Assembly (NCBI GenBank): GCA_000310025.1
Contig: FN649755.1
Span: 2,533,315 to 2,597,314, forward strand
DNA: 64,000 nt
Origin: Ectocarpus siliculosus
Lineage: Eukaryota > Sar > Phaeophyceae > Ectocarpales > Ectocarpaceae
Direction: 5' to 3'
The notes below the pieces were generated by a model. That model ran no database searches. It was not told where the DNA came from and saw only the letters and a program-made list of their open reading frames with translations. Of this stretch, positions 329 to 30,944 are shown one piece after another. The position numbers and the translations under genes are program-made. The first letter of the stretch is position 1. The number at the start of each line of letters is the position of its first letter.

Positions 329-3300
329 TCATCCGGTTCGGCCAACAGTACCCTTTACACGAACCTGCACTGTCCTCGTGTACCTCGAAATACCAAGTCT
401 TGTATCTTGAATGACGAGAATGCGGCAGTCCAAGCCAAGTATCGTGATTCGAACGCCAGACCGAATTTTCAACCATGTTTCAGGACGAACTCCGTGAACA
501 TACCTCGCCAAGACTGCTCTCGAGTTTCTTCAACGCCTCCAAGACCTCGTTGGCGTCAAGATATCCACTCTTATCCGTGTCGACCATTTCAAACGCAGCA
601 CGCATCTTCTCTTTTGAAAGGGTTTCGGTTCCTGCAGCTGTCAACAGCAGCATCGCGCGCCTGTGAAATACGCCGAGGAAATCATGTGACCCGTATGCGG
701 GGAGCTATTGAAGCCACTTGCAAACACGACTCACCATGTCCTAGGTCGTGAACCCGCGGACAAACATTTATAAAGCGAGGTGTCAAATTTCATCTGTTTA
801 CCTTCCAGTGCTTTTCAAAACGTCTGGGAGTCATACGTTGCACTATCACCAGGGAACGGGGCCGTGTGGTCAAACCTACCAGCTGAGACACGATTTCGAT
901 CTGTTCCAAATGGTCGATATGTACTCCCCAAACCCAGAAACAATAAATTAAACCAAACACCCCCATATACAAACCCAAAAACAATTAATCAAATCAAACA
1001 CCCCCATATATTATTATCAATAATTTACGCAAGAACGTTAAACATGGGCATGAATAAGAGGGATGTTCACAATCAACGGCAGAAATGCAAACACTCGTAT
1101 CCATGCTTGCCTGAATAGGCGCGTGCGCATGATGACCTTCATGCTCTTCAGGAAGCTATCGGATTGTTTGAGCATTCTCACGAAATCCTCGCCCTTAATT
1201 TCGTTAACCACGCAGAAGCCCCCCGGGACCCGATCCGTTCCGCCCCCCTCTCCCGGCAGGGTCGGAGAAGAGCAAACCACAGTTGCGCTTCTGGGTTGCT
1301 TGAGCATCAGCGCCATTTCTCCGAACACATCTCCGGCACTGCCAAGGGTTAGATGGAGTCCATGTTATGACCCCAATATTCGACTTGGCATAGGAGAGAG
1401 GCTGAACAGCACAACTAGTTGCCAAGCGAAACGTAGAGATTTCAACAGCGGAAGGTACCACTTTGCAGGCTTTTCTCACCTGCCGGAGTGACGATGAACG
1501 TATGGAGCAGAAAGACACTATGAAAGACACCCGGAACAAAAAATACTCCCGAAACGTTGTTGGTATTAATTTTGATTCATACTTGAAGTATCTGATCAAA
1601 CATGCTGCAATCAGGAACATCTCCGTCCACTGGGCGGCGTGAGGATCACGTCCACAACCGGAAACGCTTGAACGCCCGCGGATTTGCGCTCGAGCGACGT
1701 TCGACAGTTCGTGCTTGAGGGTAAGATCGTGCAGGGCATTCAAACGGGCTGTGGCGTACAGTACTCCGGTGGTCATTTCGAGAAGGCAGATAATAAGTTC
1801 CGTCCCTTGGCTTCAAGGGAAAGCGCGGGGCGCCTCGTCTTCGACAGTACAGGCGAAAGCCGGGGAATTTTTCACTGTAACCATGCAGCGTTAATGAGGG
1901 GTCAGACCTCCGAAAGAACCAGCGGGGGCGTGGTTCTCTGCGCTAGCCTGATCTGCTCGTCATCACGTGAAGAGTGGGAAAATACTCAACGGGTTGAGGA
2001 TACTTTCACCTCTGGCACCAGCAGTACCAGCGGCGACAACTCGGGACGGACATGTTTTCTGAGTGTGATTGGATCACAATAGTACCAGCCAAGTATTGGC
2101 AAGCGCGGAGAGGGGTGGCCAACACCTGTGGGCCCGCTTTTTTATCGGTTTCCAATGAAAGAGGTCGCACTCGGCATGGTATTGCCGACAAATATAGTGG
2201 ACGCGAACCCCTTCAACAGACGGAGGGGAAGTGTGCGCAGAAAAGCCTATACGCTGGACATGAAAAAAATGGCTTCGAGCGCCAAAACAGAACTAGCACA
2301 GTGTCTGCGTCGGGGGGGATGTTTCATCATGGTAGTGTGGTGGGAGGTACCCACAAGGGGGGGCTTAATTTGCCGGCCGTATATCACGGTTGTTCTTTCG
2401 CGGGCAGAAAAAAAAAGGGGGCAACTGAGTAGCAGAGTTCGAGAACCACATATATATGAACATCCCACGAGGGAATTTTGAGAGCACAAACAACACCGAT
2501 TTTTCCGCCGGTTCGACTAGGCCCTGACACAATTACAAAATTGAAAAATACATCAAACACGGTCTCCTCACCTGCTTCCAGGTGCTTAAATGTGCTCCAA
2601 TTCATTCAAAATCTCGTTCACGATCGGGATTATCTACAGTGAGGTTGATGGACTATACTCGGCACAAGCTATCGCCGTTTGGAGTATTCTGCCTCATTTT
2701 CTCGAGTACAACAACTCTTACCATATCGTGCTTCGAAAAGGCTGTGGGGTTGGTTCCAGCAAAATATCTACCAAGTACGTTCCAGTTGACCTGAACACAG
2801 AAGCGGTTCTTCCCATTCGGGGACCGCGCCCAACTGGCACTACCAAAGAACGGCACTTCAAAACGCTCCAGGCATGTATTCCTGCAAGAGCCGTAGATGC
2901 ATAAACGCTCAAAGGTTACCACCCTCGTCAATAAGCAGGCAAAGTTATTCGGTCGTGATCGAAAAGACTTTCTCGCCTGAGAGATGCCACCTTATCTCCG
3001 TACGGGTGTCCGGCCCTGCCATTGCCTTCTCCTTCTCGACCTTTCGCTCTCACGTCCAACTTCCCCTGGGAATCCAAAATAGGTACGGCACCAATCGCCT
3101 GAATCAAAACGACGAATTTGCTGCCGATGCAGTGATGGGAAATTCAATTTCGCCAAGTGTCCCATGTTTCGGTCGGCGGCATAACAAGCATACCCCGCTA
3201 TCTGCTATTGGTACGCAGTTCGTTTCAATATTCGTTTGGCTGGTGGAGTTGAGGCACACCTTGCGGTTAAAATGTTTTTTCCTCCGGCATGGCGTCTACA

Positions 3301-6300
3301 ATGGAGACGTTATCAATATGTGTTCAAACTCCCTGTTGCCACGATTTCCATATTTCCGGAGTGGCTGCACCGCAGAAGGCGAGGCAGAGAGAGATCGAGA
3401 CGGGGACAGGGGAACGGACGCGTAGCGTTGGATGCACTCAAAACCTTTACAAGTAAAGATTTGAGTTCGATGCTCGGTCCAATCGCACTAATGCGCACTA
3501 ATGACCACGCAACGTGGCAGGGGCACTTGAAGAATGCTTTTTAGCGTGAGCATGAGTGCACGCAGACAGCGGGAGAATTGTTGGAAGTCCCATGCCGTAG
3601 AAAGTGTTCCCTGGGCTCGCGACGACACCACCGTTACATGTGAGTGGTGATGCACTGGAGCAGCACTCTAGGAGCCTGCACGGCAATCACGTTGAGAAAT
3701 ATTCCCCCAACCGGTGTGATGAGTGTTCTTGTCATGGTGGGAGGACGTTTGTAATGCCAAGCTATGGTTGTGCCAGATAATGTTACCCATTCTACAGCGA
3801 GCTCCTGGCAATAGCCAAAGTATCACATGATTCACAGACAGTATTCCGTCGTGGGCACCTGGCAGTACTCAAGGGGCACGTCCGAGGGGGGGGCATTGAC
3901 TGCAACAGAGGCGGACATGAGCAAAACCACCAGATGGCAGAAGACTCGTCCCCGCACTCCGCTCTGAGCTTTGAATCATCGCGCCGTGAGTTACAGAGTA
4001 TGAGTCCCGTCGTCTACCCGCCAAACCAACGGGCAATCCAAAGAGAATACTGAAACGTCCCGCCTATTCGCATGGCGGGCGAGAGGCAGCCGATGCTATA
4101 ACCCCCGCATACATCATACATACGCCGGAACGCTCGTGAGGAAAATGCCTACCGCAACCGTGTCATTGATAGTGCCTGCGATGAAACCTCTCACCTCTAC
4201 CACGGTGTACATTGAATCTCCTAGATCCCCTTGCTGCACAACGGCACTTCCTGCGGGCAACCTTCTCTGTGTGATACTCCCCACAGCTCTTAGCAGAGTC
4301 TTGGCGCGGCTGATGTCACGAAGAATAGACATCTGTGCCAAGGCAAGGAAATACAAATCGTGGTTCGGCAATCCAAGAGGTGTATGAGAAGGCTTGGGTT
4401 TAAGGTGTGCATAGGACATATCGGCGGCTGATAGAACAAATCACGTGATATTTTCCGCCGCTGTTCGCGTGGGTGAAGCACCTCGGTGTCTCGTTCGGAG
4501 GTCTGATCTACGAAAGCCTTTTCACTCGCACCAGTGAAAAAAGCCAACAAGAACTCGGTCACAGGGCGATGGCCCCAACCCCTCCTGAAGCCGAATATCT
4601 GCTGCCATGTTGCCATCGGCGTCTCTCCTGCTATTGGTCTGCACGCAAGAATGTCCATACCTCTCTCAAATTGGCGGATGCCGTCTTCGTGCCCTTCATC
4701 ATACGTCCGAGGCTGTCTTTGCCGATTCGAACCGCCTGTTGCCACCACAAACAGTGACATCGGTGGGAGCCATATGGAAGGTGCGCAAGTATTCACCAGC
4801 TGGCAGATTAGCTTGCACGAGCAATACCCTTGCTGCTGTAGGTGCAGTGAAACGTCATGTGCCCTTGATTGCTTCGTTGCGCTCCGCGTTGTTGGTGACA
4901 GGCGAAGGGCACCTGAACTTTCTTTAGGCAGACAGTTGTAGCAAATAGGGAACTGTACGGCGTTGACGAGGGAAGTTTTGATTGGTGAGGGCACCCGCCG
5001 TGGTAACACCTCCCTCAACTAGCTAGCGTACCCAGTGAATTGAGGCAAACCCGCTAGATACTGATTTAAGCCCATACACCGAAGTAAAACAGCCATATCA
5101 GCTGGTATTAGCACAAAACCATCTGTATTCAGTACACTTCCCGTAGTTCTTTATTGGGTGAACGACAAAAATATACTTCAGTAAAACATATGGCGCCCTG
5201 ACTGTCCTACTCCCGCCCCGCCATCCTGCCTGAGTGACAGGCCACGAAATATATTGTGGCAACAATTCAAAACAACAGCAAGAAGCAGCAGCCGAGGCCT
5301 TCCTACGCCGGTGGACTGATTCGTGTCCTAGAGCACAGAACAGGCATCCTCCCGAACTTTCGTTTAGATTGATCGCGTATGGTTGTAGTATCAGAATACC
5401 GCTATGATTTTGTGCAACCTGCGCACAGCACGAATGTATATGTGTTACAATTTTTCACCAGTGGACTGCGGCATCAGCAGCGAAACAACAGCAGCAGCTG
5501 CAGCAATCGATACAGCCAAAGATCACTCTTACAAATGTACCACGTGTGCTCGTGAGCGTTGTCTGAACAAGGCTCTAGGTGGCAACACCCCGAAGGGAGA
5601 TAGATGTCCGAGTCATCTGACACGATTTTCACCCAGAATAACATATACCCCTATTCCTACATGAAATGCACCAATGGATGACCTAGACGGCGCGAGCGTC
5701 GCCACCCGCCGTATGTGCCGCCGCAGCAGTCAAGTGATACCACGTATAAGGCTTCCCTTCGGGAGTTAGGGGGTTTACGTCCGGCGGGCGACGCAACAGG
5801 ACATGGCCAATTTCATCACGGCTACATCATTGTATCTCAACGTTTGGCGGTGCCAGTTTTCCGTACAAACAACCTGCAGACCTTGCGTGCATGTCCGCTG
5901 CATCCTGCAAAGCATCCTGCTAAGGGTGTTCGGCATATTGTGCTTACTTCCTTGCGTACACCTGCGTATGACTCAATTTTGTTTCTGGTGCTTTCACTTC
6001 CAGAGATGGTTTTATGCACTGTGTAACTGCCTCGAGGGTGCTTGACCAATTAAACACAACGCGGTGCGATCATCTCCTGTGCGCGGAGTGAGGTTTCTCG
6101 ATCTCGCACAACATAATCTACTTGAACGCCATTCATGGTTACCGCAAAAAGAAAAACAAAGGAAAAAAAAAGCGGTAACCTGGTGGCCAAGCTCACGATG
6201 TGATCGGCTTGTTGTACAACATCGCTGCCAAGCGACGAAACCCCAACCCCGATGGCAAACACCGGGGGCGGCGGCTTGTTTTACAACGTCGCTGCCAAGC

Positions 6301-9300
6301 GACGAAAACCCAACCCCAATGGCAAACACCGAGGTGCTGGGGGGAGGGAGGGGGGGGTAGCGTTACAGTGCATCCATCATTTCACTCCGTGTACCCTCTT
6401 TCCGCGGGGAAAGGTGGGGCGCTCTGGCCATGAATCCAAGAGTCTGCGCGACCTTCCTATTGTGTGACCCCGGCTGACAAGGCAGATATATACACCGAAA
6501 AGCGTGTAGCCTGGCGCCAGAACAGATGAGACAAACACACTTAACTCCGGATGCTCGCTCGCATGGAATATTGGACCCGATCGAAACTCAACCATATTAG
6601 TTCTGTTGCCGCTGCTGTTGTATTCTCCGTACACTTAATAAAGCTGTTCCGGCCGATATCCAGCCACCCCCACAGTCCTCACCGATCCAGCGCCTGTGAC
6701 TACACCTCTCTTCACACCTTGAGCGTACTAACGACGTAAGTGCCATCGCACTTTGTGAAGAAACACGTACCTGGACTTCACTCGCACATCGCACGGTCGC
6801 CGATCTCGAGCCGCCTTGGATCATGGCCGATTCGCCAAAAATATCGCCGCTCGATAAGGACGCCAGCTTGACTGGGGGAGCGCCGTCATGTACTCGCTTC
6901 AACAGATCCACCTGGGAGGGTGATCACGAAACCAGTTCAAACTTCAGTCTTGCTTGCGCTGCGAAGGAAAAAACCAAGACATAAAGCTCACAACCAACCC
7001 TTGACGATTTCTGCCGTGATAGGTAAGGCTTGAGACAGACGGACTAAAATGAACCTTCGTCTCTCCACCCCCGGTCCTACTGGGGGGAACGTGCAAGACA
7101 CGGAACTTAAGGAGTAATCCACCCACTTTTTTTTATCTCGCGGCACGTCATGTTTTCGGCGATCTATCCACGCCACTGCCACTGCTACTCCTGCTCTCCG
7201 CTCAACAAGTGTGCACACGTATCGGTGGCGTCGAGACGTAATCTGTACCGCGCCAAAACCTTCACAGAGGTCAAGGGTACCCCTCCCTTCGCCAGAATTA
7301 GAGAAAAGAACGACCCCACGTACACAAGGTATCACCTTTCCGCTGCCGAGGATGTACATGTAGGGAGACTCTTCCACATCTTCCCCTTCAGCGAAAACAA
7401 CATCTCCCCGCTGGAATTCTACCGTCTCGAGGGAAGTCATCATCTTCTCGAAGCTGAAATAGACCAACAGTTCAGGGTAGGCCATTGGGTGATGTGGATG
7501 AGGTGAAAAACAAGAACCAACCTACCCACATCAAGGAACGCCGTTATCAGCGATCCACCAAACAAGGCTGTTGAGTTGTGTGATTTTGTTTCATGAGCAA
7601 AAAGGGAGATGTGGTGTGAAAATTCCCTGAACACATGGCCGGAGTAGCTCAGAAACCTGTGGAGGAATGCCCATGTGCCCCGGTGAGGTGGGTTCGATTC
7701 TACGACAGCGGAATAGGCGCTTCTATCGGATACAATATGGACTACTGTACATACCTCTCCATGTTGACACCTCGCTGCCCTCTGTTGGCACTCGCCACCG
7801 CCTTGTCGAGCTCCAGCGACTCCTGCAAGAATGGCAGGCGAGGACACACGTGACATTGGTGGTGGACAATTCATGCAGCACCGATCCTCTGAAAGAAAGT
7901 CGGTTCGAACCATGTGATAGTAACATTTTCAAATATTCCTAACGTGCCAACCATTGCAAACACCGAGTTCATCTCAATTCTATTCTAGTTGGAACAAGAA
8001 AGTCAGGCACAGCCTGAAAGCTGTCGGCTTATTGAAGCTGTTCTGTCTACTAGCTTCTAGCCTACGTCACCAGGTTCTGTCTGTCGCTTCGGGCGCCTCT
8101 GCAATAATGCTTATTTCGTGCTCATTCTTCTTGATGTCGGAAAAGGTCAAGAGTGGTTTTCCTTATGAAGATTGGTGTGCGTGGGGGTGTGCTGACATGT
8201 GGATGCGTCGGGTTGGCGCAGACAACTCCATGTCTCGCCCCCGTGCGCTCGGTGTTCGGTAGACGCCGAGGTACAGTGCGAACATCAACACCGACGCATG
8301 CCCCCAACGGGACACTGCACTGGTGAACACATCAATATCACCAGCCGGTCCTATGCATTATTGCCGGGCTTGCATTGGGCCAAACCTACCATTCATTGGG
8401 TTTTGGTGACGTTTGATGTGGTACAGCACTGCAACGTGTCTTTGCCAGATTCGGCTCTCGCCGTTGTCTGTAGCGCCCTTCACATTTTTCTGTCGCGACG
8501 AGATACACCAGCTCAAGCCTTTCAGTTTCATGGACTGATAGACTTGTTCGGATCCCAACGTTGGACATGAGCTCACGTTAGCGATGGAATGGATCGTAGA
8601 CGCCAACAATGCAACATATACTCATCCACTGTATATGGACACTCCCGCGGCCTGCGCTCGCTCTTACTGGTGTTTCTAAAACGTGACCGTCGCTTTGTCA
8701 ATCCACGAAAAAACTACATTAATATCTAATCATGTGTCACAATCCGAAAGAGCTCCTTTCGGCGTAATAGACCACGCACGTACAATTACCACACACCCAC
8801 TTTCCATGGTCTGGGGCGTTTCTGTTTGCAACGACGGGAAATTTTTCCTACCCTTCCAACTTAGAGGCGTGTATTTCATCCGGTCTACCTGACGACGACG
8901 AAACGTGAAAACGGTTACACACGCGTGAGAATCACCTCCGGCAATATGCACTATTGTTTGTCGTTAAACTATCAAAATACCCAGCTGCTCGTACCTCGTC
9001 CGATAGAGTTCCCTCTCCAGACTCGGCTAGCACCCTCGAGATATCTGCGGCGCTGACGAAACCCTTGCCCTCTTGGTCGAAGCTGGAGAATGCCTGACGT
9101 ATTACATCCACGGCCTCCTCAACGCTAAGTAAGGTCGCAAAGGGCGCGCGAGTGTTTTGGGATGGGAATACAGGTACCCACCTACATTCGAGACCGTAAA
9201 AAAAGTGGCGTGTACGCACGGGGAGAACCACGGCGTTCGTGTAGAGAGCCCAAGCTGGCCAAAAATGAGGTAACCATTTATACCGCATACCCTTTCTTTG

Positions 9301-12300
9301 AACAGAAAAACGAAACAAAAAGGTATACATTCACGCACAAGCAAGCTGATGAACTTTTCGGCTGCGCATGAATGAGAGCTCCATGCTCGGCCCATTTGCT
9401 CACAAAGAAAGACTGACAAGTACTTCGCTGCTAGTGTAAGCCATGGTGATGTCTGTGAGCTGGAGCATGCCGACAAAACACCGTTTGGCTAAACAAACCT
9501 TGCTGGAGTACCCGTAGCCCTGACGGGACCAGTGGCAGAAGAGGTTGGACTACCGCCATTTTTTAGCGATTCCTTCACCAGGATGGCGAACAGACCAGTT
9601 TCGAGGTTGGTTTTCACAACCTGGAGAGGGACGAGGAGGGTTTCCGCGGATTGTGAGTGCAGACGGGGATGGGGCGATGTTCCCACGACAAAAGATAAGG
9701 AGGGCAATTGAACCAAGCATCCCTCCTGCAACAAAACCGCAGGTATATCCCGCAGAAGAGAGATTAGGGGCCCCGCCGAAGCGGGTTGGCGTGTCGAACT
9801 GCGGCCGAACCACGGTGGTTGACCGAGAAAGAAATAAGCCAGACGCAGAGGACAAACAGGACGAGAAACAACAAGGTGTATCGTGTCCTACTGAACACGA
9901 GGAACGAGGAAAACCTTTACGGTATGCGGCAAGACACCCACACGACTCTGTCCCTCAGCATCAGCCCGGATGTCCCAACATATTGCGGTAGTTTCGGTGT
10001 GAAAAAACAACGATGATAGCAGCCGACTAGCCAGCAGCCCAGAGAAAATGTGCGCCACACAAGTGTTTGATTGTGGACTCTCCTGTCCGAGGGCCGTACT
10101 CAGCCAGACACCATGGCAAACAACACAAGCTAAAGCGGGCTTGCGTCTAGGTGCATTGTGATGTGTCCTTTGTGGGTTTTTCTTCCCTCAGAAAAAATCA
10201 ACATTATTTCTTGCAGAATGTCTGATGACCCGCTGACAATCGACAGCTCACTTGTTGAAAGGCTGCCAGCTTCTCGTCGACCCCTTCCATCACGTCCTGG
10301 CTGGCACGTTCGCCAGTTGTCCAGGGATGCCGAAGCATGGCGTCCGCTGACAGGCGCTTGTTCGGATCCTTCCACAAAAAAGAACACCCAGGAACACTTA
10401 TCAAGTACAAATATATTCCATGCAACACAATATCAAGCCGCAGCTATCGAGAGCTGCCGACGCGTAGGGTCCACCGGCAGCAGTCGTCAACCATCTTGAC
10501 TACTCGTACCATGAAACTCAAGAACCCACCATATTGTCTGTCTATTGCTGAGCCAAAGGCATTCTGCAAAAGGGCAACACATGCAGACATCAAGGTTGTG
10601 GGATCAAATGACAGGATCTCTCGGCCATGGCCATGATTTCCGGGCTTGCCTAGTGCCAAGACGAGAACACCCGATAAAGACTCGAGGGGTCGCGGAATCT
10701 CGCAAACCGTCCCCCCTACACACAACAAAGTGGATTTCAGCTTGAGAGGTAATTCTCTCAGTTAAAAAACTGCTCGAACCCAACAATAGCGCAAGCGCGG
10801 CGGGCGATTGTCCATCCGGTTCAATTTTGCCACCATTTGCCAAAATATCTTGGGACTTACATATTCCGCGTGACTGGCGTACCCCTTAGTGATATCCAAA
10901 TACATACCGTGAGCAAGTTTCGTTTGCGGATAGCTCGATCAAGAGCGGGTTATAATTCTTGTGTTTGTTGGTGAGAGAAAAACGTGATTCCGCCAAGAAA
11001 ATGCTAAATTTGCTTAGGGAAAACTTGGTCGAGTGTGGGATGCAGTTTGTTTTTAAACCTGTTTTGAACGGATCATGCCGACCTCACGTCCCCCAACCTC
11101 TGCTTTTCGCCGAAATCCGGTGGAGAAATGGAAGAAGAAAAAATCATGCGACCCCAGAGATACATATTTTCGGAAGGTTGCACCGGCAGATTCAATAACA
11201 CTGAAGGGAGTTCGGACCATTAGGACCCGCACCCAGCTCGACATTTTACAACAAGGAATATGCTACCTTCTCCATGAGCTTTTGCATGAGATCCACCGCG
11301 GCCTCTGACAGGTGATCCGTAACGCCTTCTTCGACCGGGACCTGATAGGAACATTCCGAAGAAGACGAGTGTTTCCGAGAAAGTGCTTCGTGTAAACCTT
11401 TTATTTGCCTCTTTTACGGAAAGAAAAAGGTGGTACTTCTAGGTGAATAGGTGAATAGCAAGCCATTACTCTTGCTACCAGAAGGAGTACGAACCAGGAC
11501 ACAACGATAGACTTCTCCGGTTTGTTGTTTCGGACCAATGATGGAGGGCAATGTTAAAGTGGACGTTTTGATACTTCGAGAAAGCGCTCCCTTTTTTTTT
11601 GGCGGTAAGTCTTTCTCCTGCTAGTTTTTTTATGTTTTCTTCGCCGTTATAGCCTGCGACCACGAATGTGCTTCGTTGTCTTTGTCTCGACGAGGAGGGA
11701 TGGTAAGATGCTGGAGAGAGGTCCGCTCGATTATTTCAGATCACCACAACGACAACAACAATCAAGTCGTCCACCACCCCCTACTTTCTTGCCTCGGCCT
11801 CGACGACCCGGCGAAGTATGTCGACGTCGCTCGTGCCTCCTTCCAGATCGAAGGGGTGAACGCCCACCAGCATGATGAACATCACCACGCCCATCGCCCT
11901 TGGTTCCGTTGGATAATGAGTCGATGCAGGTCGATTCAACGCACGATAAGTGTAATGACGACAACGACGACTATCACAACAACGACAGCACAAGAGGGAA
12001 ATCCCGGAAAGGAACTTTGGCATCTAGCAGTTTCCGAAAGAAGTCATTCAAGCGTGAGCACCCGGTCGCGATGCTCGAAGCATGGTGTACCGACGCCTGC
12101 AAGCTGTCGCCACGTGCTATATTACCGTCTTCAAAACCGTCTCTGTGGAAGGGATCATTCCAGCGTCTTCTATTTTTTTCACCAAATTACCCTCTTTATC
12201 TTGCCTTCCATGGGGAATAACTGAACCTGGTGTAAAAATCGGCCAACCCATGAGGTCCGTTAGTAGGTTGTTGTACCACGCAGCACACTCTCAACGGCAC

Positions 12301-15300
12301 TCTAAATAAACCCAGGCCTTGCTCGAAACATCATACGCCATCACGCCCAAACCGAACCAAGGAAGATCATACAGCAGTACGGCGGCGAGGGTATCGAGGT
12401 ATCGTACCTCTGCTGCTGCTATGGACTAGACACGCATATTGCCGTACAAGCGTTTTGTGTCTATTGCCCCTCCGCCCCCGGCTCTTCTACTCGCAAAAAA
12501 TCCCCCAAGTCTTGTTTATCCGAAACAGAGAAGAACAACCAATATCACCCGCACGCGCGGCTCATTTCTGCATAAATAGCTGTGTCGCGGTCCATCCACT
12601 CACCACATGTCCGCCGCAGTGGTGAAATTGTATGGTATGCCTTCGTCTTCGCACTGCACAAGCTCCGGTGGCCAATAGGCAGGTGTTCCGTTGATACGTT
12701 CACCTCGGTCCAACTCCTGCCGCACGCCCAGCCCAGCGCCGCACGAGCAGCCGAAATCCACCAGTTTCACCTTCCGGGGCCACGCGGATATTATTAACGC
12801 GTTTTGGGGAGAGTGCGTGCCTCTGAAAACGTACGTCGAAGAAGCGGTGCGAGCTGAAGAGCAATGTTGTTTTGCTGAGTCTGGTGTTGTGCTAGTGACA
12901 GCGCACACGCCAGTCATTACTTGGCAACAGGTGGAAGAGGGACAACCGAAAACCGGAAAGCGTTGGAAATTTTGAGGTGTTCAGGTCTGTTAGCGGTCGT
13001 TGACACAATCTTGTGGGAGGGGGACGTCGAGATGCCGCCGCCGCCGTGAGAAGCGCCAATCCTGAAACTGGCACACAAGGGGTGACCACGCATTGGTAAG
13101 ACATGCATGTACCTTGTCCCTGGCTTGAGGCGGGTCTAAAATACTCAGAGCGAACCAAGGCCAGGGCGACATCTCTCCAGTCATGCCGACTCTTAATGTG
13201 GAATTCCATCAATCCATACATTGCAGGCGGAGCAACCATACACTTTGAATTGTCGGATGATTAATTATTGCTGCTGTGAGTTTTAATCAGTGTTCTTGGG
13301 TGCACAAAGCACAGTTCGGAGAGGGGCAGAGTTTCCGGAGAAGGACACTCGTCAATACTGCACTCCAGACAAGAACAGTTCTCCGCAAAATTACAGCGCA
13401 AAGTCGAAGGTCTCAATCTTGATGGGAGAGAGGTTAATAGCGGTCTGCTGTGAGAGAACACTCGTTGCCATCGAAGAAAGAATCACGGGTATGGACACCA
13501 CACTTCAGGCCGCGCATGTAACGGAGTAACAAAGATGTTGCACGCATCCCATCAACCCTTCAGCACGTCACAAACATATGCACCTCATTTGACATACCCA
13601 AAGCAAGCACACGCAAGCAAACATACCCGCGCGTCGTCGTCGTCCCAGGAGGACAGCATGAGGTTCTCCGGCTTCACGTCGGCGTGCACGATACCCTTCC
13701 GATGCACGAACCGCAGGGCCGCGGCGAGGTCCCTCAGGAGGGCTGCCGCGGTCTGCTCGCTGTACGCCCCGTTCCGGATGAGGTGTTCAAACAGCTCGCC
13801 TCCGGAGACCAGCTCCAACACCAGGTAGTAGAAGCTTTCGTCTTCGAATATCTCCCGCATCCCTGGCAAGCGATTCAGCACCAGACTCTCTCTTAAGAAC
13901 TCCGAAACTAGGCTGGACCGGCCTGCCTTCCTTGCGTGGCGCCACAAAGGTTTAGAACTGATTTTTATCTGTGGGACTCGTCGCACTCGCCGATGGTCGG
14001 CGCTGCCCTTGTCATGTGTTCACAGCACTGGCCCAGCTGTCCTCGCACCCACGTTGTCACGAAAGGGTCGGTACTGCATCGATCATCGCTCTCCGCCGCA
14101 TGATTTAAGGAACCGCGTACTTTCTGAGTCCTCGTGGTATAGCTCAGTGGTTCGTGGAAAAAGGAGGAAAAAAAAAAAGCTATCTGGTACATGATACCAC
14201 CTCATTGGGATGCTCTCAACAACGCGATGTCCTCCCAACGCCTTGGGCGTTGTCGACCCCATACACAACACGTCCATCCTGATGCCGAACATAGCAAACT
14301 AAGTTGCAGAGGGCGTGTCGTATGTGCAGGAACGTGTGCCTTAGAGCAAAAAAGTAGGGACGAAACACGAGAAAGTTCGCCACAAATTCGAAGCTGGCTG
14401 AAGCGGGCCCAGAGCGAGAAATGTTTTTTTAAGCCATCGAACCGCCTTGTTGCCGAAAGCAGCGTTACAGGAGGAAGTGGGCGCCCGTCGCTTCGCAGAT
14501 GGCAAGATAAATATCGCGTGGGTAGGTAATGGCGAGGCTACCTCAGCCAATAGATGAGACCAGACTTTGAGTTTTTGTTTCCGGTCCAAGATACAGCCTG
14601 CAATTCAAGCTATGGCAAATCAAAATCGCATCCAAGGCCAGGGAGTCAACTCCGACTATAGACGAATGAGGAACGGGAGGGTGAGCTTTATTCTGGAAAT
14701 GTGAGTAGACATGAGAGAAGGGCTGTTCAAACCATCTTCAAGTAAAGCACCTCAGAGGAACTAGCCTGTGTGACTCCGGATCAGAGTTCTTTAGTAAAAG
14801 AGGAACACCGTCGGTTCGATGGAAACTGGAGCAACGACAGGTTCTTGGAGGGACTAAAAAGGGGTGGATACTCATGGCTGTGCATGCCGTAGTCGTTAGA
14901 CCATCGACCTCGCATCTCTACCAAGCCGGGACGGAGCACGCCGGATTCTCACACAACCAGGCTAGCACATCATCAACCGCGAAGCGCCCTGAGGTGTTCG
15001 ACGAGTCACATGGAGAGTGCACTGCAGCCTGCTAAGAATACATGGCATCTTGTGCTTACTTTCTTGCACACCGATGACAGCTGGGAATAGACGGATAATT
15101 TTTCTGGTACTTTCACTTCCAGAGAAAGTAGTACGCACTGTGTACTGCCTCGAGGGTGCTCCTCCAATTTCACACAGCGTGATGCGATCGTCCCCCTTGC
15201 GCGCGGAGTGAGGGTTCTCGACCCCGCACACCATGATCTACTCGACCACCATCATGGTCAGCGCAAAAAAAACAAAGGCAAAAAAAAGCTGTAACGTGGT

Positions 15301-16714
15301 TTTCGAGCCCACGAAGCGACCGGCGTGTTTTACGATGTCGTTGCCTAGCGACGGAAACTCACGGGGGGAGCTCGGGGCGCATTCGTCGCGCAACAACAGG
15401 GCTGGAACAAATATGTACATATCCACCACTCCTTTCGAAAGGTCGCACCGCGCGCCATCGCAAAGGCGTACACGCTGCTCAGCACATCTGCCCTCGACAC
15501 CTTCTGAACAACAACACTGAACGCGCAAGGCTTATCTCGCGGCACGGCATGCTTGAGAGGACAGGGAATGGAGATGGTGGCTGCGACAATTGAACGCATG
15601 CACGCACCGCGTACGCACGCACGATGCGCCCCCACCGCCCCGGCATCGGTGGACATCACCTGCGATGTTTGGATGCCCGCCAGCGTCGTGGATAATTTTC
15701 AACGCGGAGAGCTCGTGAAGGAATTCCGCCTGGTCCATCGCTTCTTTATCAACCTGACGAACGTGGTTGTTGTGGTTGCAAGAATAATTCTCATCGAGGC
15801 ACCGCTAACGTTCTGGTGCGTTTTATTATGATACCGCAATTAACTGGGGAGAAGGGGGAGCAGCACATCACTGTTGGTATATTCAATTAGCCGAAGACAG
15901 ACCAGTGTCCCACTGGCTGGTAGTCCACTATGCCAGTGTGTCACGAGATTGAAATACCCCTGTGGAATACCTACGGAAAGCACAGAAAAAGTCACCGGGG
16001 TGGTGTGGGGGCGCGCTATATACACTGGAGCGCTCGGGCGAACTTAAACATACGGGCAATCACATCGCCCACTCCCACCCAATGACAAGGCAGCCCCACC
16101 ACGTAACGACTGGCAACACCGTGAATCCGCAGCTACGAAGAAACCACGACACCTTTTTGACGGCCACGCACACATCGCTGTCGGATCCCCCCGCGTCCGA
16201 GCTCTCGGGCGAGACCTCGGATTTGTGTCCTCTTCCTGGTACTGCTGCCACCACAGGAGGAGGTGCTGAGGTTGCAGTGGCGGGTGTGCCCATGATGCGA
16301 TTCTTAGGAGTAGCCATGTGCACGGTACCATACCCGCCCTCGCCGAGTACTTCTCCCATGTCGTAGTGGTCGGTGATGGCCGAGGTTTCCGGTCGAAAGG
16401 CCTGCCCAGGTCAACGATCAGTATTCGCACGGAATCGTGTGCATGGTGGGGTAGGAGGCGGGGTGCGGCGTCGAGCCGGGGGGTCGAGCGGTTCGCTCGA
16501 AATGATCTCTTTGTATGCCCTTTGGCCGTAAGCGATGTAGCCAAGTCTGCGGAAGTGAGATTGTCACGGGGCTAAGCTGACAAAAATAAGCTTTCACTCC
16601 GTGTGCGATGTGAGCATGGTCCATTGGCACTCCTCATTTCGACATCCAAAACACGCTACATATCTATGTACGAAAAGCTCATGTTGTCCAGGAGCTTACT
16701 TTGCCCTTGTTCAT
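329..16714 (-). CDS. CDPK-like protein kinase with EF-hands and two cyclic-nucleotide-binding domains
   Basis: Predicted Ser/Thr kinase controlled by both cyclic nucleotide and Ca2+. Minus-strand exons: 16714-16700, 16401-16153, 15753-15660, 13862-13627, 12770-12604, 11898-11793, 11341-11267, 10368-10252, 9620-9499, 9124-8995, 7822-7755, 7453-7336, 6911-6771, 4735-4661, 4332-4195, 3065-2977, 1338-1111, 660-504 and a tentative 364-329. Every junction is in phase, giving 786 codons plus stop. The start, MNKGK, is a five-codon exon with an in-frame TAA directly before it and a GTAAGC donor after it. It is plausible but unproven. The tentative last exon adds 11 residues and a TGA; the true C-terminus could lie left of the window. 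Domain order: kinase about 15-350, EF-hand pair about 395-460, cNBD1 about 460-565, cNBD2 about 565-720, EF-hand about 735-770. Three introns have GC donors (after 11793, 2977 and 1111). SINE-like repeats sit in the 15659-13863 and 6770-4736 introns. The gene is certain; the two terminal exons are not. Confidence 0.85.
504..4332 (-). other. Cyclic-nucleotide-binding domain 2 and C-terminal EF-hand
   Basis: Exon 4332-4195 starts MSILRDISRAKTLL and carries LPAGSAVVQQGDLGDSMY. Exon 3065-2977 adds GKLDVRAKG and ends in VASL. Exon 1338-1111 has a textbook cassette, GDVFGEMALMLKQPRSATV, then helices ending MRTRLFR. Exon 660-504 carries a fully canonical EF loop, DTDKSGYLDANE (Asp1, Asp3, Ser5, Gly6, Asp9, Glu12), predicted to bind Ca2+. 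A cNBD followed by an EF-hand at the C-terminus is unusual. About 20 Gly/Pro-rich residues interrupt cNBD2 just after the cassette. Confidence 0.9.
5738..5812 (+). repeat. Short dispersed repeat A
   Basis: One of four copies of a 60-75 bp repeat (others at 21604-21665, 28242-28299 and, inverted, 30610-30690). Shared parts are an aaggyt-cc start, a cgggagttag-like middle and a core close to gcctcccgggggcgacgcaa. It lies in a kinase-gene intron just before a SINE-like copy. Confidence 0.7.
5895..6345 (+). mobile_element. SINE-like repeat, copy 1 (head missing)
   Basis: Closely similar to the reverse complement of 36445-36900. It contains the stretch around ctgcctcgagggtgcttgac, a poly-A/G tract bracketed by inverted ggttaccg/cggtaacc, and two tandem units of about 60 bp with the core tcgctgccaagcgacgaaa. 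It ends in a G-rich run. The tRNA-like head seen in longer copies is absent. It sits in the kinase-gene intron 6770-4736. Confidence 0.8.
8995..9620 (-). other. Junction segment and EF-hand 1 of the kinase
   Basis: Exon 9620-9499 encodes the segment after the kinase, beginning VVKTNLETGLFAILVKESL. It is in the place of the CDPK autoinhibitory junction, but I see no clear pseudosubstrate. Exon 9124-8995 carries an EF-hand: an entering helix ending AFSSF, then the loop DQEGKGFVSAAD. Position 1 (Asp), 3 (Glu) and 6 (Gly) fit. Position 5 is Lys and position 12 is Asp instead of Glu, so Ca2+ or Mg2+ binding may be weak. A second, fully degenerate EF-like segment (GVNMESFEKMM) spans the junction of exons 7822-7755 and 7453-7336 and runs directly into cNBD1. 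Confidence 0.75.
14128..14160 (+). other. tRNA-like 5' half (A-box only)
   Basis: The segment tcctcgtggtatagctcagtggtt resembles the acceptor and D-arm of a eukaryotic tRNA, but no anticodon arm or B-box follows. It is probably a decayed SINE head or chance. It lies in a kinase-gene intron. Confidence 0.2.
14867..15365 (+). mobile_element. SINE-like repeat, copy 2
   Basis: Diverged copy with its tRNA-like head on the left (gtagtcgttagaccatcgac), then the shared body, the poly-A region and a single 60-bp tail unit (about 15320-15360). It lies in the kinase-gene intron 15659-13863. More decayed than copies 3 and 4. Confidence 0.8.
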
Positions 16715-17239: not shown

Positions 17240-18967
17240 TTGAACCAATCAATCAATCAAAACTGGATCTTGCACACTTTGACAGGACTCGGTTCCGAAG
17301 TCCGACACGCACGACCTCAAGGTGTGGAACGGAGGAGAGATCTCCATCACGGTGTTATAGAAGAAGGGCGACCGGTCCAACCGCAACAACTTCAGAGGGA
17401 TCTCGCTGCTATCTCACGTAGGCAAGGTCCCCGTCAAGATCATCACCAACCGCCTAAGTGCCTTCTACGAAGCCAACAACATCCTCCCGGAGTAACAGTG
17501 CGGCTTCCGACCTGGGCGATCCACCATCGACATGCTGTTTGTCGTGCGCCGACTCCAGGAACTGGGGCGAAGAAGGAAATACCGCTCTACATGTGCTTCG
17601 TCGACCTGAAGAAGGCGCATGATTCGGTGGACCCGAGAGCGGCTTGCCAGGGCCAGGATCCCCGAGAAGATGATCGCCGTCATTCGCCAATTCCACGACG
17701 CAATGCTAGCCCGGGTGCGCATTGACGACGGAGAGTTTTCGGCCTGGTTCTGCGTCACACAAGGCCTACGACAAGGGTGTGTGCTGTCCCCGCTGCTGTT
17801 CAACATCTTCTTCGCCGCGGACATTCGACTCCTGGAGGATGATGTTATTCTGCAGAACCTGGTGTACATGGAGGAGGAGACGGGAGGGGGAACGTCCTGT
17901 ATGCCGATGACGCCGGCGTCGTATCGAGGTCTGCCGAAGGACTGGCGAGAATGATGGCCTTCATCGTGGAGGTGTTCGAGGAGTTCGGGCTGACGGTATC
18001 GGAGAAGAAGACGGAGACGCTCCTGATGTGCGCAAAGGAGAAGCACACACCAACACCACCGCCCCCCCCGCCGCCACCGCTGATCATCGAGGCAGCAGGG
18101 CAGAGGTACGCCCAGATTACTGAATTCCGGTACCTAGGTGGCCTCGTCAACGAACATGGCGACCTCACCCGGCGGATCAATTACCGGAGCAGGACAGCGT
18201 GGGCATGCGTCAGGAGATATCGTCAGGAGCTCTTCGACATGCCGAGAGCACCGTTCCGACTCAAGACTCGCCTGCTCCAGGCCGAGGCGACGGAGGTACT
18301 ACTGTACGGCTGCATGGCATGAGCCCCACGTCAAGATCAATACCGGACGTTGCGGACGATACACCACCGGCTGCTACTGCGAGTTATCGGCTACCAACGC
18401 AAGAAGGGCACCTACCGGCAGCTTTCCTACGCCCAGACCTTGAAGAGGGTAGGGTGCCAGAGCGTGGAAACCACTATTCGGCAACGGCGCCTGCTGCTCG
18501 CGGGAGCATTGGCAAGGCAGCCACGTGGACGGTTCCCGAAACGGTTGATGCTTGGCGAGCTGGTGGCGGGCGAGGGCCCAGGCAGGGGGAAACCGGAGCA
18601 AAACTGGCAGACGTGCCTGAAGGATGACCTCAAAATATTCGAAGCAGAGCACGGATCTACGGACACCGAGACATGCTTCTTCGGAGTGCCGGAAACAACT
18701 TGGATGGAAGCAGCGAAGGTGGAACGGGGTGTACCGTGGCTTACAGGGGTACTGCAGGGAGCTAAGAGGTTCATGACCTCCTGGCACAAGAAGGAAGAGG
18801 AGGCTAGCCGACAACGAGCGCTCATACACAACAAGAAGCCCGGCAACAACACGGACATGGCAACAACCGCTGGGGCGGGAGGGGTACAGCAGGTGGACGA
18901 GACGGCGAGGGAGGACAGGAAACGCGAAGATGCGGACCGAGTGGCGCTAAATACTATGCCGGATTGA
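17240..18967 (+). pseudogene. Decayed non-LTR retrotransposon reverse transcriptase
   Basis: Reverse-transcriptase blocks appear in order across shifting frames. They are FRGISLLSHVGKV (about 17390) followed by an in-frame stop, then [15 protein letters not shown] (about 17760-17805), then the YADD active site (about 17895), then VSEKKTETLLM and EFRYLGGLVNEHGDL (about 18120-18160). The C-terminal part is an intact frame at 18350-18967. At least two frameshifts and one stop separate the blocks, so no full-length product is possible. No endonuclease domain or 5' end was recognised. The type is a LINE-like (non-LTR) element. The 18,986 repeat copy abuts its end in the opposite orientation. Confidence 0.88.
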
Positions 18968-18985: not shown

Positions 18986-19607
18986 CCCCCCCCCCCCCCC
19001 CAGTGTTTGCCATCGGGGTTGGGTTTTCGTCGCTTGGCAACGACGTTGTAACACATGCCGCCGCCCCCGGTGTTTGCCATCGGGGTTGGATTTTCGTCGC
19101 TTGGCAACGACGTTGTAAAACAAGCCAAGCCAATTCACTTCGTGAACTCGGCAACCAGGTTACCGGGAGGTTTTTTGCCTCTGTTTTTTTTTGGGCGGTA
19201 ACCATAATGGTGGTCGAGTAGATCATGTTGTGCGGGGTGGAGAACCCTCACTCCGCGCAAGGGGGATGATCGCACCACGTTGTGTTAAAATGGTCAAGCA
19301 CCCTCGAGCAGGTATACAGTGCTTACAACTGTCTCTGGAAGTTAAAGCACCAGAAAATAAATTAAGCCATAAGCAGCTATCATCCGTACGCAAGGAAGTA
19401 AGCACAAGCGGCCGAACACCCTTAGCAGGATGCAGCTCACCCTTCATGCGACTCGCCGAATACCTCACGGCGCTTCGCGCTTGGTGATGTGAGAGCCTGG
19501 TCCGGTCAGAACCCGGCGTGCTCCGTCCCGGCTTTGTAGGGATGCGAGGTCAATGCTTTACAACTACGGCATGCACGACTATGAATACACCCCCCGCCCC
19601 CCCCTGG
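18986..19607 (-). mobile_element. SINE-like repeat, copy 3
   Basis: Near full-length. On the plus strand it begins with a C-run (about 18989-19002). Next come two 60-bp units with the core cgtcgcttggcaacgacgtt, a ggttaccg/cggtaacc hairpin around a T-rich stretch, and a body of about 280 bp. It ends with the tRNA-like end and a second C-rich run at the assembly gap. Very similar to copy 4. Read in the minus direction the head contains ccgg-gttctga-ccgg, which folds like a T-arm. Confidence 0.85.
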
Positions 19608-21739: not shown

Positions 21740-22335
21740 TTGTTATGGTAAATTTTCCGATTTGGAATCCCGATATTACGCCTTTTACATCCAAACCCCC
21801 ATGAGGCCGCAGGAGTTCTGCGTACTTCGTTGGAAATGCTCACATAAGCGCTTTGGCACTCAGTACTCGCCTCACAGAGACTCGTTTGCATTCAAACCTT
21901 CGAGGCCGCGTAGAGCATTGCTGTGAGCCTCTTCGAGCCAAGTTTGGGGAGCTGCGGTGCAGTGTGTGTTCACCATGCTTGGTAAAATAGGAATTCCAAT
22001 TTGGAATTGCTGGACGATCCGGGTGGGAATTCCTCATGAATTCCCAACTGGATTTGGTTGGAATTCCAAATTGGGAATCGTGAATTTGCTTTCATATCAT
22101 TGCATACTCTACGCACACTACACTCTAGCTGCCCAAACTTGGCTCCGAGAAGCTCACAGTAGTGGAACAGCCTTATCGGTTAGATGGCAAACAGGGGTCT
22201 GTGAGGCGAGGACGAACTGACAAAGCGCTTTGGTGCTCTCTGCTTGCTGCCCAGTACGCAGACCTCCTACTTTTAGGGGGTGGTGGAGCATTATCTGGCC
22301 ATCCCCCGGATTCCAAATCGGAAAAATTCTCCGTA
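21740..22335. repeat. Palindrome-rich element built on ggaattcc and ccaatttgg
   Basis: An imperfect palindrome of about 95 bp (21,988-22,080) is centred near ctcatgaattcc, with repeated gaattccaatttggaatt-type words. A farther inverted pair, ttttccgatttggaatcc (about 21,757) and ggattccaaatcggaaaa (about 22,309), brackets it about 550 bp apart, like terminal inverted repeats. It may be a small non-autonomous DNA element. The C-terminal part of the OTU-like frame runs into it. Confidence 0.45.
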
Positions 22336-22922
22336 ACACCTGGCCTAATCGGACGGTGGAGGCGGGTACGGTTGACCAACGAGTGTGATTTTTTTATGTT
22401 AATGTTGTACAACTGCTGTTGGGCAGCTACAATCTCTATTCCCGTTCCATAGGTGGTTGGGTTTGCCATGAGTTGAAGGTAGTATGCGACACTTTGATAG
22501 GTTTGCTGAGGATGACCGGGTATTTGAACGTGTTCTGAATTTATTCCCGCTGAGATGCTCTGGAAGATATTTTGACCTGAGCCTGGGATGGGGATGTGAA
22601 GGTTGTTCGTTAAGTGGTCGATGAGTTGCCCTCGGACCGAAGAGTGCATGCTACGATCATGGACGACGCGACGGGCGATACATCGCGGTAGGCATGCACC
22701 ATCACCAATTTCGTCGACAATATGCCAGGACCCGTTGCTGCCAGAGCCACTGGAAGGGTTATTGCCGTCGTCATTTCCGTTGTTGTTGCCGTTGTTTTGG
22801 TCATCACGGTCGCCTTGGTTATTATTATTGTGGCTGTCGTTGGTGCAGCCGTGACCAGGTAGTTGAATGTCGAACACTGGTGGACGTTGCGCCCTCTTCT
22901 GAGCATCTACCTACTATACCCC
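22173..22922 (-). pseudogene. OTU-like cysteine protease frame, probably transposon-derived
   Basis: An open minus-strand frame of about 245 codons with no ATG before the domain. It has an Asn/Gly/Asp-rich leader, then GDGACLPRCIARRV, matching the OTU active-site box around its Cys. Farther on is YYLQLMANPTTYGTGIEIVA, matching the conserved M-x-G-x-x-E-I helix region. OTU enzymes cleave ubiquitin-type isopeptide bonds, and such domains are also carried by several retroelements and large DNA elements. The frame loses similarity before the expected catalytic His because it enters a palindromic repeat, so it looks truncated. No intron or neighbour gene was found. Confidence 0.55.
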
Positions 22923-29300: not shown

Positions 29301-30289
29301 AAAACCACTAAAAAAAGTCGACTTGGTACATATCTGGGCAGACATCCCACACATTCTGGCCGCGGGACTAATCATTCCACCTAGTACGCATACAATCAAA
29401 GAGGGACTACCCATTCTTATCCACGGTCGAGGTACTGCGGTAAAGTCTGTACATACCCGACCTCCTCCGTGCGCTTTGCAAGGCGAACAAACGAAGAAAT
29501 ATGCTTACATGTATGTAGCATTTCGACTTTTTTTTTTTTTGTGCTTTTTTCTCTGATGGGACAGCGTTTTCTCCAACACTTTCTTCTGCATGGCCCTCAG
29601 AGGACCCGTTGGTGTATTACCCGCTATGCGTGGTTCTCGTGAGACATTTGTACCTGTACTGGCCGCCTCAAGTCGCCGTGACCGGCTCTTTCTTCAGGGG
29701 CTGAGATCCGAACCAAATATGCCTTCAGATGTACATGAACACTGAACTGGAACACTTTCTTAGAGGGTTGTTTTCGTGTTTTCCTCTTTGGTGGTCTGTT
29801 ATGTTTAGTTGCGCGTGTCTTTTCCATGATGATTTTTGCGCGTTGTTCGTCTGTTGAGAACATGCACGATTTTGAAAGACCAGCTGGGCGCTGGAGCTCA
29901 ACACACATGGTACATTGCGACTGAACCAAGGGGAACAAGTACCCCAACAAGCATTCAACGGTATTGGCGTATTGGCATCCGTTGAAATTCGACCAGTGGC
30001 GACGGATTTTTTTTTTTATCTTCAACCAGGCAACTACAGCAAAGCAGTTTTTGTTTTGTGCAGTCCCGCGTGTACCGCGAACACAGCACAGCTGTCAAAC
30101 ACAGATGTAGACAGCGGTTTTTCATGGCCGCCGAGGGGACCAAGGCTCTTGGTTGATGTTGCTCATGGGAACAACTCACGCAACATAGAAGTCCTCCGAC
30201 ACGACTTTGGCTGCGGTCATTCATATGTCAATTCGGAAAAATCGAAAAAATTAAAATTCAAACGTGTGGTAAGCAGTCGATGTCTGTCA

Positions 30290-30460
30290 CTGTTCTTGGG
30301 CACGTTGTGCGGCTCTTTGATCGTTTGGTGTGTGCGTGAAATAGTCCCACAGACTATACATGGGAAACACGATCACACAAGAAGAGTCAGTGACCAAACA
30401 CAGCGGATTACAGCAGTAGGACCTGCAGCAAAGACACCACTAGCCTAAAACCACACGCTC
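30290..30460 (-). repeat. Dispersed module, inverted copy
   Basis: The reverse complement matches 26270-26390, including tgcaggtcctactgctg, taatccgctg and tgtgggact. It suggests a composite element spanning about 26.2-30.5 kb. Confidence 0.6.
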
Positions 30461-30609
30461 GCGCACAAGCGAAAAGTCACGGCGGGAGAAGACAAAATAG
30501 CCCGCACACGATACATACTCCAGGGTAAATTATGCAGGTTGCACGCAAAACCCGCAATACCGAACGTCATGAAGTTGAGATGCGACCATGCGACCGCGAT
30601 GCCAATGAC

Positions 30610-30690
30610 TGGCCATGTCCTCTTGCGTCGCCCCCGGGAGGCAAGTGACCTAACTCCCGCAGGGGAACCTTGTATATATATAAGTTGATA
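30610..30690 (-). repeat. Short dispersed repeat D
   Basis: Inverted copy of the 5738 family; next to a run tgtatatatata at 30670. Confidence 0.7.
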
Positions 30691-30702
30691 ATCACACATT
30701 GG

Positions 30703-30944
30703 TTTACAATGTCGATGCGGTTTTTAAGTGCGTTGTGTGTGGACATCATATGTCTCCCGGTGGCTCCGTTGGGCTCCAAGGCTTGAAGGACGGTTTTTCT
30801 TGCCGTCTTCACCATGTGGCTTGTCTCCGGAATGTACACTATGTGTCCTGCGGCTGTAGGCGCCTTTGCACGTTACAGTATGGTCTTGGACGGCCTCACC
30901 GCTGCCCAAAACTGGACGGGTCCGCCGAAGATTTGAGTGCATGA
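30703..30944 (+). CDS. Small Cys/His-rich frame, possible zinc-binding exon
   Basis: An open frame of about 80 codons with spaced cysteines and histidines: FKCVVCGHH, then SCRLHHVACL, then SCGCRRLC and PHRCP. It resembles a RING-type or similar zinc finger but lacks one expected Cys pair. There is no ATG before the first Cys pair, and no firm splice sites were chosen. It could be an exon, a transposon remnant or chance. Confidence 0.25.

Follow-up and report, generated by a model that had tools for sequence, protein, structure and literature searches.

Gene structure and domain order

The DNA stretch analysed here, called the window throughout, comprises 64,000 nucleotides of the Ectocarpus siliculosus genome (C30:2533315-2597314) and carries on its minus strand a protein kinase gene with EF-hands and cyclic-nucleotide-binding domains (cNBD). 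Sixteen exons from 16401 to 504, modelled manually by splice sites and phase, join to an open frame of 745 residues which is free of stop codons and in phase at every junction. Along this chain, the exon model and Pfam place a kinase, a pair of EF-hands, two cNBDs and a further EF-hand. The observations at this locus are thus a phase-consistent exon chain, its module order, intact ligand residues and a colinear paralogue on another contig (C346), found in a search of 189 Mb in 492 contigs. The single chain of this order had been proposed by a sequence-only reading of the same DNA and is supported by the phases and by the colinear paralogue. Exon borders named there, 10368 to 7336 and 1338 to 504, recur in the 16-exon model, and nothing was found to support exons that extend to 16714 or 329, the outer limits then given to the gene. 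The suggested domain check gave kinase, both cNBDs and the C-terminal EF-hand above the Pfam cut-offs, and the position of the cNBDs after the kinase, an order unlike that of PKG and PKA, is borne out by exon model and Pfam. The features of the gene are as follows (window coordinates, all on the minus strand).

16401-16153, 15753-15660, 13862-13627, 12770-12604, minus: exons 1 to 4
11898-11793, 11341-11267, 10368-10252, minus: exons 5 to 7
10321-16365, minus: protein kinase domain, exons 1 to 7 (Pfam Pkinase and exon model)
9499-9620, minus: exon 8, junction between kinase and EF-hands, beginning VVKTNLETGLFAILVKESLK (exon model, aligned with C346)
8995-9124, minus: exon 9, EF-hand 1, loop DQEGKGFVSAAD (Pfam EF-hand_7, 25.6 bits, under the cut-off of 30)
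7755-7822, minus: exon 10, the larger part of a degenerate EF-hand 2 (by eye; aligned to the C346 paralogue)
7336-7453, minus: exon 11, continuous from the putative EF-hand 2 exit helix (FEKMM) into the start of cNBD1
6771-6911, minus: exon 12, phosphate-binding cassette of cNBD1, FGESAMIQGGSRSATV (Pfam 55.1 bits for the whole domain, PKG alignment)
4195-4332, minus: exon 13, last part of cNBD1 and initial strands of cNBD2 (exon model)
2977-3065, minus: exon 14, middle of cNBD2 (GKLDVRAK...GDKVASL), GC donor (phase-constrained search)
1111-1338, minus: exon 15, cassette of cNBD2, FGEMALMLKQPRSATV, and following helices, GC donor (Pfam 55.3 bits for the whole domain)
504-660, minus: exon 16, C-terminal EF-hand, its loop DTDKSGYLDANE canonical (Pfam EF-hand_6 and EF-hand_1)

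The splice sites of the model were picked to keep the frame open, so that the absence of stops is in part a consequence of how it was built. A spliced aligner run with the raw window reproduced the same 16 exons, which is a self-check only, as the query was the model itself. Exon 14 was chosen among nine phase-constrained candidates by its fit to the cNBD fold, and cNBD2 needs this exon (3065-2977) for its match in Pfam. Introns of the GC-AG type seem to be frequent: they follow positions 11793, 2977 and 1111 of the window, with otherwise good donor consensus, and one follows position 12681 of C346.

At the 5′ side, a stop codon lies immediately upstream of the 16401 acceptor. Therefore, at least one upstream exon is absent from the model and the true N-terminus is unseen. 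At the other side, no coding exon was identified below position 504 and the 4000 bases fetched below position 1 of the window consist entirely of N, so the end of the gene is likewise unseen. An alternative is that the window gene has become a decaying pseudogene within a kinase-EF-cNBD-cNBD-EF family, for which the start codon not found in the model and the three GC donors could be cited. We hold it to be very improbable, since a stop-free in-frame chain of 745 codons can be built and the catalytic lysine, the alphaC glutamate, the DFG motif and the Glu-Arg pairs of both cNBDs are intact.

A colinear paralogue and further relatives

The paralogue is located on a separate contig of 22.8 kb (C346). 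Spliced alignment of the window protein yielded a colinear model over residues 13-745 with a score of 1101, compared with 90, 109 and 115 for controls with the same aligner (the reverse strand of C11, another contig with a related gene, and both strands of window 30001-44000). The part behind the kinase alone scored 511.5 on C346 versus 76-114 on four controls, namely each strand of two stretches of the window. The two proteins are 46% identical (299 of 652 aligned columns) and have the same module order; the Pfam scores of the C346 protein are 201 bits for the kinase, 124 bits for two cNBD stretches and 48.7 bits for a pair of EF-hands (EF-hand_7, above the cut-off). An open frame of C346 at 9565-9065, with a modelled exon at 9170-9066, spans the segment matching EF-hand 2 and cNBD1, and in both C30 and C346 a single open exon covers the putative end of EF-hand 2 together with the beginning of cNBD1.

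These results bear on the alternative that two adjacent genes have been joined, namely one for a CDPK-like kinase that includes EF-hands and one for a distinct cNBD-cNBD-EF protein resembling a PKA regulatory subunit. The span of the chain is long, with introns of up to 2.4 kb, and the exon 11 link between EF-hand 2 and cNBD1 hinges on the correct reading of an EF-hand that Pfam does not recognise, being weaker if EF-hand 2 was misread. In addition, a degenerate copy on contig C9 holds the cNBD half of the C346 gene, with no kinase match in the 20 kb fetched there. Two neighbouring genes are nevertheless unlikely because two loci have the same module order; the phases fit throughout the window chain, the paralogue is colinear from the kinase to the last EF-hand, and the related gene on C11 also encodes a kinase followed by a cNBD. 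We consider this alternative quite improbable.

The copy on C9 (3383009-3391149) is 66-80% identical to the 3′ half of the C346 gene, introns included, and contains a stop codon. The C11 gene (3668961-3675057, plus strand) appears as a divergent third member with an HFD motif in its catalytic loop and EF-like segments followed by a cNBD in which the cassette arginine was not seen. In Pfam, its kinase reaches 207 bits and the cNBD behind it 40.8 bits, and as only these two pass, its status as a full family member is unproven. A six-frame genome search with the EF1-EF2-cNBD1 stretch missed both the C346 gene and the kinase gene on C11, and listed an EF-like match with a stop codon elsewhere on this contig (C11 2846521-2846709). 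This outcome speaks against easy recognition of the segment; the search itself seems to be weak for it, because spliced alignment places the segment in C346. Among viral contigs, 21 kinase stretches matched the search pattern and none was confirmed. In NCBIfam, 19 models were listed, including distant bacterial kinases and cNBD proteins, all under their cut-offs.

The kinase domain

The kinase domain matches Pkinase with 178 bits (2.6e-52, residues 73-325), above the curated Pfam cut-off. By eye, we recognised the Gly-loop, which precedes an insert, the lysine of VAVK, the alphaC glutamate, HAD in place of HRD, DFG and PPE. Among the best 60 of 2162 PDB matches, CaMK1 and CaMK1D are closest, CDPKs stand high and chains of DAPK, CHK2 and phosphorylase kinase are likewise present; no AGC kinase is found among them. 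For the C346 kinase, a calmodulin-domain protein kinase (CDPK) ranks first, and Aurora and DAPK are also listed (best 60 of more than 2100). Judged by these matches, the window kinase is a member of the CAMK group close to CaMK1 and CDPK.

The HRD equivalent of the catalytic loop reads HAD in both the window gene and C346. In DAPK- and titin-type kinases that have motifs of this kind, control is exerted by a C-terminal tail and not by phosphorylation of the activation loop. The replacement of HRD by HAD thus suggests tail control for the window kinase as well, rather than activation-loop phosphorylation. Exon 8, which follows the kinase, has by eye what we take to be a likeness to the junction helix of CDPKs. 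The label CDPK-type given by the sequence-only reading holds for the CAMK-group kinase near CaMK1 and CDPK and for the CDPK-like linker; it does not hold for the calcium-binding part, as a block of four EF-hands is lacking and the loops are poor.

Cyclic-nucleotide-binding domains and EF-hands

Both cNMP_binding domains are well above the Pfam cut-off of 27.5 bits, with 55.1 bits for cNBD1 and 55.3 bits for cNBD2. The best PDB matches of the pair are chains of cGMP-dependent protein kinase (1.5e-16), presumably those of Plasmodium PKG, followed by PKA regulatory subunits (2.6e-14). Aligned with the PKG chains, both cassettes keep the glutamate and the arginine and have a serine after the arginine (FGES..RSA and FGEM..RSA). 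A serine at this position favours cGMP, and the cyclic nucleotide read by the window cNBDs is probably cGMP, as far as cassette residues can tell.

The EF-hands are less uniform. The loop of EF-hand 1, DQEGKGFVSAAD, is non-ideal at positions 3, 5 and 12 by eye, and this hand alone stays under every Pfam cut-off (25.6 of 30, 23.1 of 25 and 17.9 of 25.4 bits). EF-hand 2 of the window protein is not recognised by Pfam, and its loop, inspected by eye, is without the usual acidic residues. The alignment shows poor loops of both hands in the window gene and in C346 alike. The C-terminal EF-hand exceeds two cut-offs (EF-hand_6 with 31.2 bits against 25, EF-hand_1 with 31 bits against 25.4) and falls below that of the pair model EF-hand_7 (29.3 of 30); summed across the whole window chain, EF-hand_7 reaches 47.8 bits. 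The partner of this hand is not seen in the model, and the sequence fetched below position 1 is N. The earlier description of cNBDs enclosed by EF-hands is thus correct as to order, with the qualification that the kinase-adjacent pair is degenerate and only the C-terminal loop is canonical. Any calcium sensing would come mainly from the C-terminal EF-hand. The cNBDs appear to make the stronger case for ligand input, with Ca2+ input depending on the last EF-hand.

Proposed mechanism

With moderate confidence, we favour the reading that one gene specifies a Ser/Thr kinase of the CAMK group whose tail consists of a degenerate EF pair, two cNBDs and a Ca2+-competent EF-hand, and that this kinase would act as a two-signal enzyme. 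In such an enzyme, the C-terminal tail would hold the kinase inactive, as in CaMK, DAPK and CDPK enzymes. The two cNBDs would bind cyclic nucleotide, probably cGMP, the C-terminal EF-hand would bind Ca2+, and ligand binding would alter the tail and release the kinase in response to the two signals. That Ca2+ would in this way be integrated with cGMP or cAMP is what we infer from the domain composition.

Several observations weigh against this two-signal reading. In the gene model, GC donors occur in three of the 15 introns and weak 'aag' acceptors in three, so that single exon borders may shift. For C346, the window protein served as the guide to the exon borders, and the resulting model contains a 17-base exon as well as poor donors. 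Intron positions common to both models (within one column and in the same phase) amount to 0 of 15, with a random mean of 0.3; conserved introns were therefore dropped as evidence for one gene, and either the duplication is old or introns have turned over. The C11 tail scored 135.9, little above the controls at 76-114, and its protein shows no EF-hand family and no second cNBD above the Pfam cut-offs, its EF-hands being seen by eye only. As to the ligands, PKG leads the PKA regulatory subunits only modestly for the cNBD pair, and the first cNBD cassette of C346 reads PRGES, which makes ligand binding at this site doubtful. Finally, the kinase-adjacent EF pair of the window protein is degenerate, so that Ca2+ control rests on one visible EF-hand.

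The last point leads to a further alternative, in which the protein is one chain under control of cyclic nucleotide only and the EF-hands are structural remnants or scaffolds, with Ca2+ being ineffective at cell concentrations. The poor loops of EF-hands 1 and 2 in both paralogues, the scores of window EF-hand 1 below the Pfam cut-offs and the unseen partner of the C-terminal hand are in line with it; however, the loop of the C-terminal EF-hand is canonical and this hand exceeds two Pfam cut-offs, and the C-terminal EF pair of C346 is above the cut-off as well (EF-hand_7, 48.7 bits). We consider control by cyclic nucleotide only unlikely.

Comparison with known kinases

Normally, Ca2+ and cyclic nucleotides are sensed by different kinases, and the two signals converge further downstream. 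We know of no direct animal or plant counterpart of the kinase-EF-cNBD-cNBD-EF class, and no kinase with both EF-hands and cNBDs was found in the open-access literature searched. The CDPKs of plants, apicomplexans, ciliates and some oomycetes are similar in having, within one chain, a CAMK-group kinase and behind it a junction and EF-hands, and CDPK chains are among the best 60 of more than 2100 PDB matches each of the window and C346 kinases. In contrast to CDPKs, the window protein is without a contiguous calmodulin-like domain of four EF-hands, having only two hands with poor loops behind the kinase, and its two cNBDs precede the last EF-hand. With PKG it shares tandem cNBDs with PKG-type phosphate-binding cassettes (FGE...RSA); it differs in its kinase, which belongs to the CAMK and not the AGC group, in the C-terminal position of the cNBDs and in the added EF-hands.

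Related combinations are described in stramenopiles, and the caution of the sequence-only reading that similar proteins might exist in protists was well placed: in the kinome of Phytophthora infestans, cNMP-binding domains are reported for eight kinases, AGC and CAMK taken together (PMC3019232, Table 2). The CAMK kinases among these resemble the window protein in joining a CAMK-group kinase to a cyclic-nucleotide-binding domain, a comparison by description only, as the available part of that report states neither EF-hands nor domain order for them (PMC3019232). PITG_08008 of the same species, with EF-hand, PH and kinase domains and a negative result in 45Ca binding, is likewise an unusual combination of EF-hand and kinase in a stramenopile; it differs in its N-terminal EF-hands, and no cNBD is mentioned in that part of the report (PMC3019232). 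Database entries of other stramenopiles may well show the same module order as the window protein.

In malaria parasites, PKG is described as acting upstream of those Ca2+ signals by which Ca2+-dependent kinases are activated (PMC3942320). A bolder proposal, which we put forward tentatively and towards which we do not lean, is that the genes described here represent an unnamed kinase family, of which this genome has two full members and a divergent third. CAMK-type catalysis in such a family would be gated by cGMP and Ca2+ in one chain, condensing the apicomplexan relay from PKG via Ca2+ to CDPK into a coincidence-detecting enzyme. If true, one enzyme with both sensors would be a compact integration point for Ca2+ and cyclic nucleotide, and the lineage would have a kinase class for which a direct animal or plant counterpart is not known.

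Other cyclic-nucleotide genes and neighbouring sequences

On contig C25, cNBD exons are located upstream of an AGC kinase exon in a PKG-like arrangement (exon hits, no gene model), and this kinase exon, used as a control, matches PKA and PKG in PDB. The window gene is therefore probably an additional enzyme and not the sole cyclic-nucleotide kinase of the species, as judged from the exon matches. Three exon matches to class III nucleotide cyclases (PF00211) are present in the genome. A genome search with PAS_9 and bZIP_1 for aureochrome-type proteins listed no two neighbouring matches. Another combination of cNBD and kinase is found at C13:3022171-3020647 on the minus strand, where a cNBD exon lies upstream of a kinase of different type on the same strand.

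Within the introns of the window kinase gene and just upstream of it, repeats occur in opposite orientations. They comprise a 67-base tandem unit in two copies (6205-6334 and 18991-19124) and longer dispersed repeats which are 79-94% alike (5912-6168, 14897-15275 and 19171-19560). Also just upstream of the gene, at 18323-18964 on the plus strand, an open frame of 214 amino acids resembles the tail of a retroelement polymerase by eye and has no Pfam match. A frame of 245 amino acids at 22176-22910 on the minus strand, equally with no Pfam match, contains a GDGACLPR stretch which we take to be reminiscent of OTU proteases. At 44273-44854 on the plus strand, an open frame matches the SLAC1 voltage-dependent anion channel family with 35.5 bits (Pfam cut-off 27.9).

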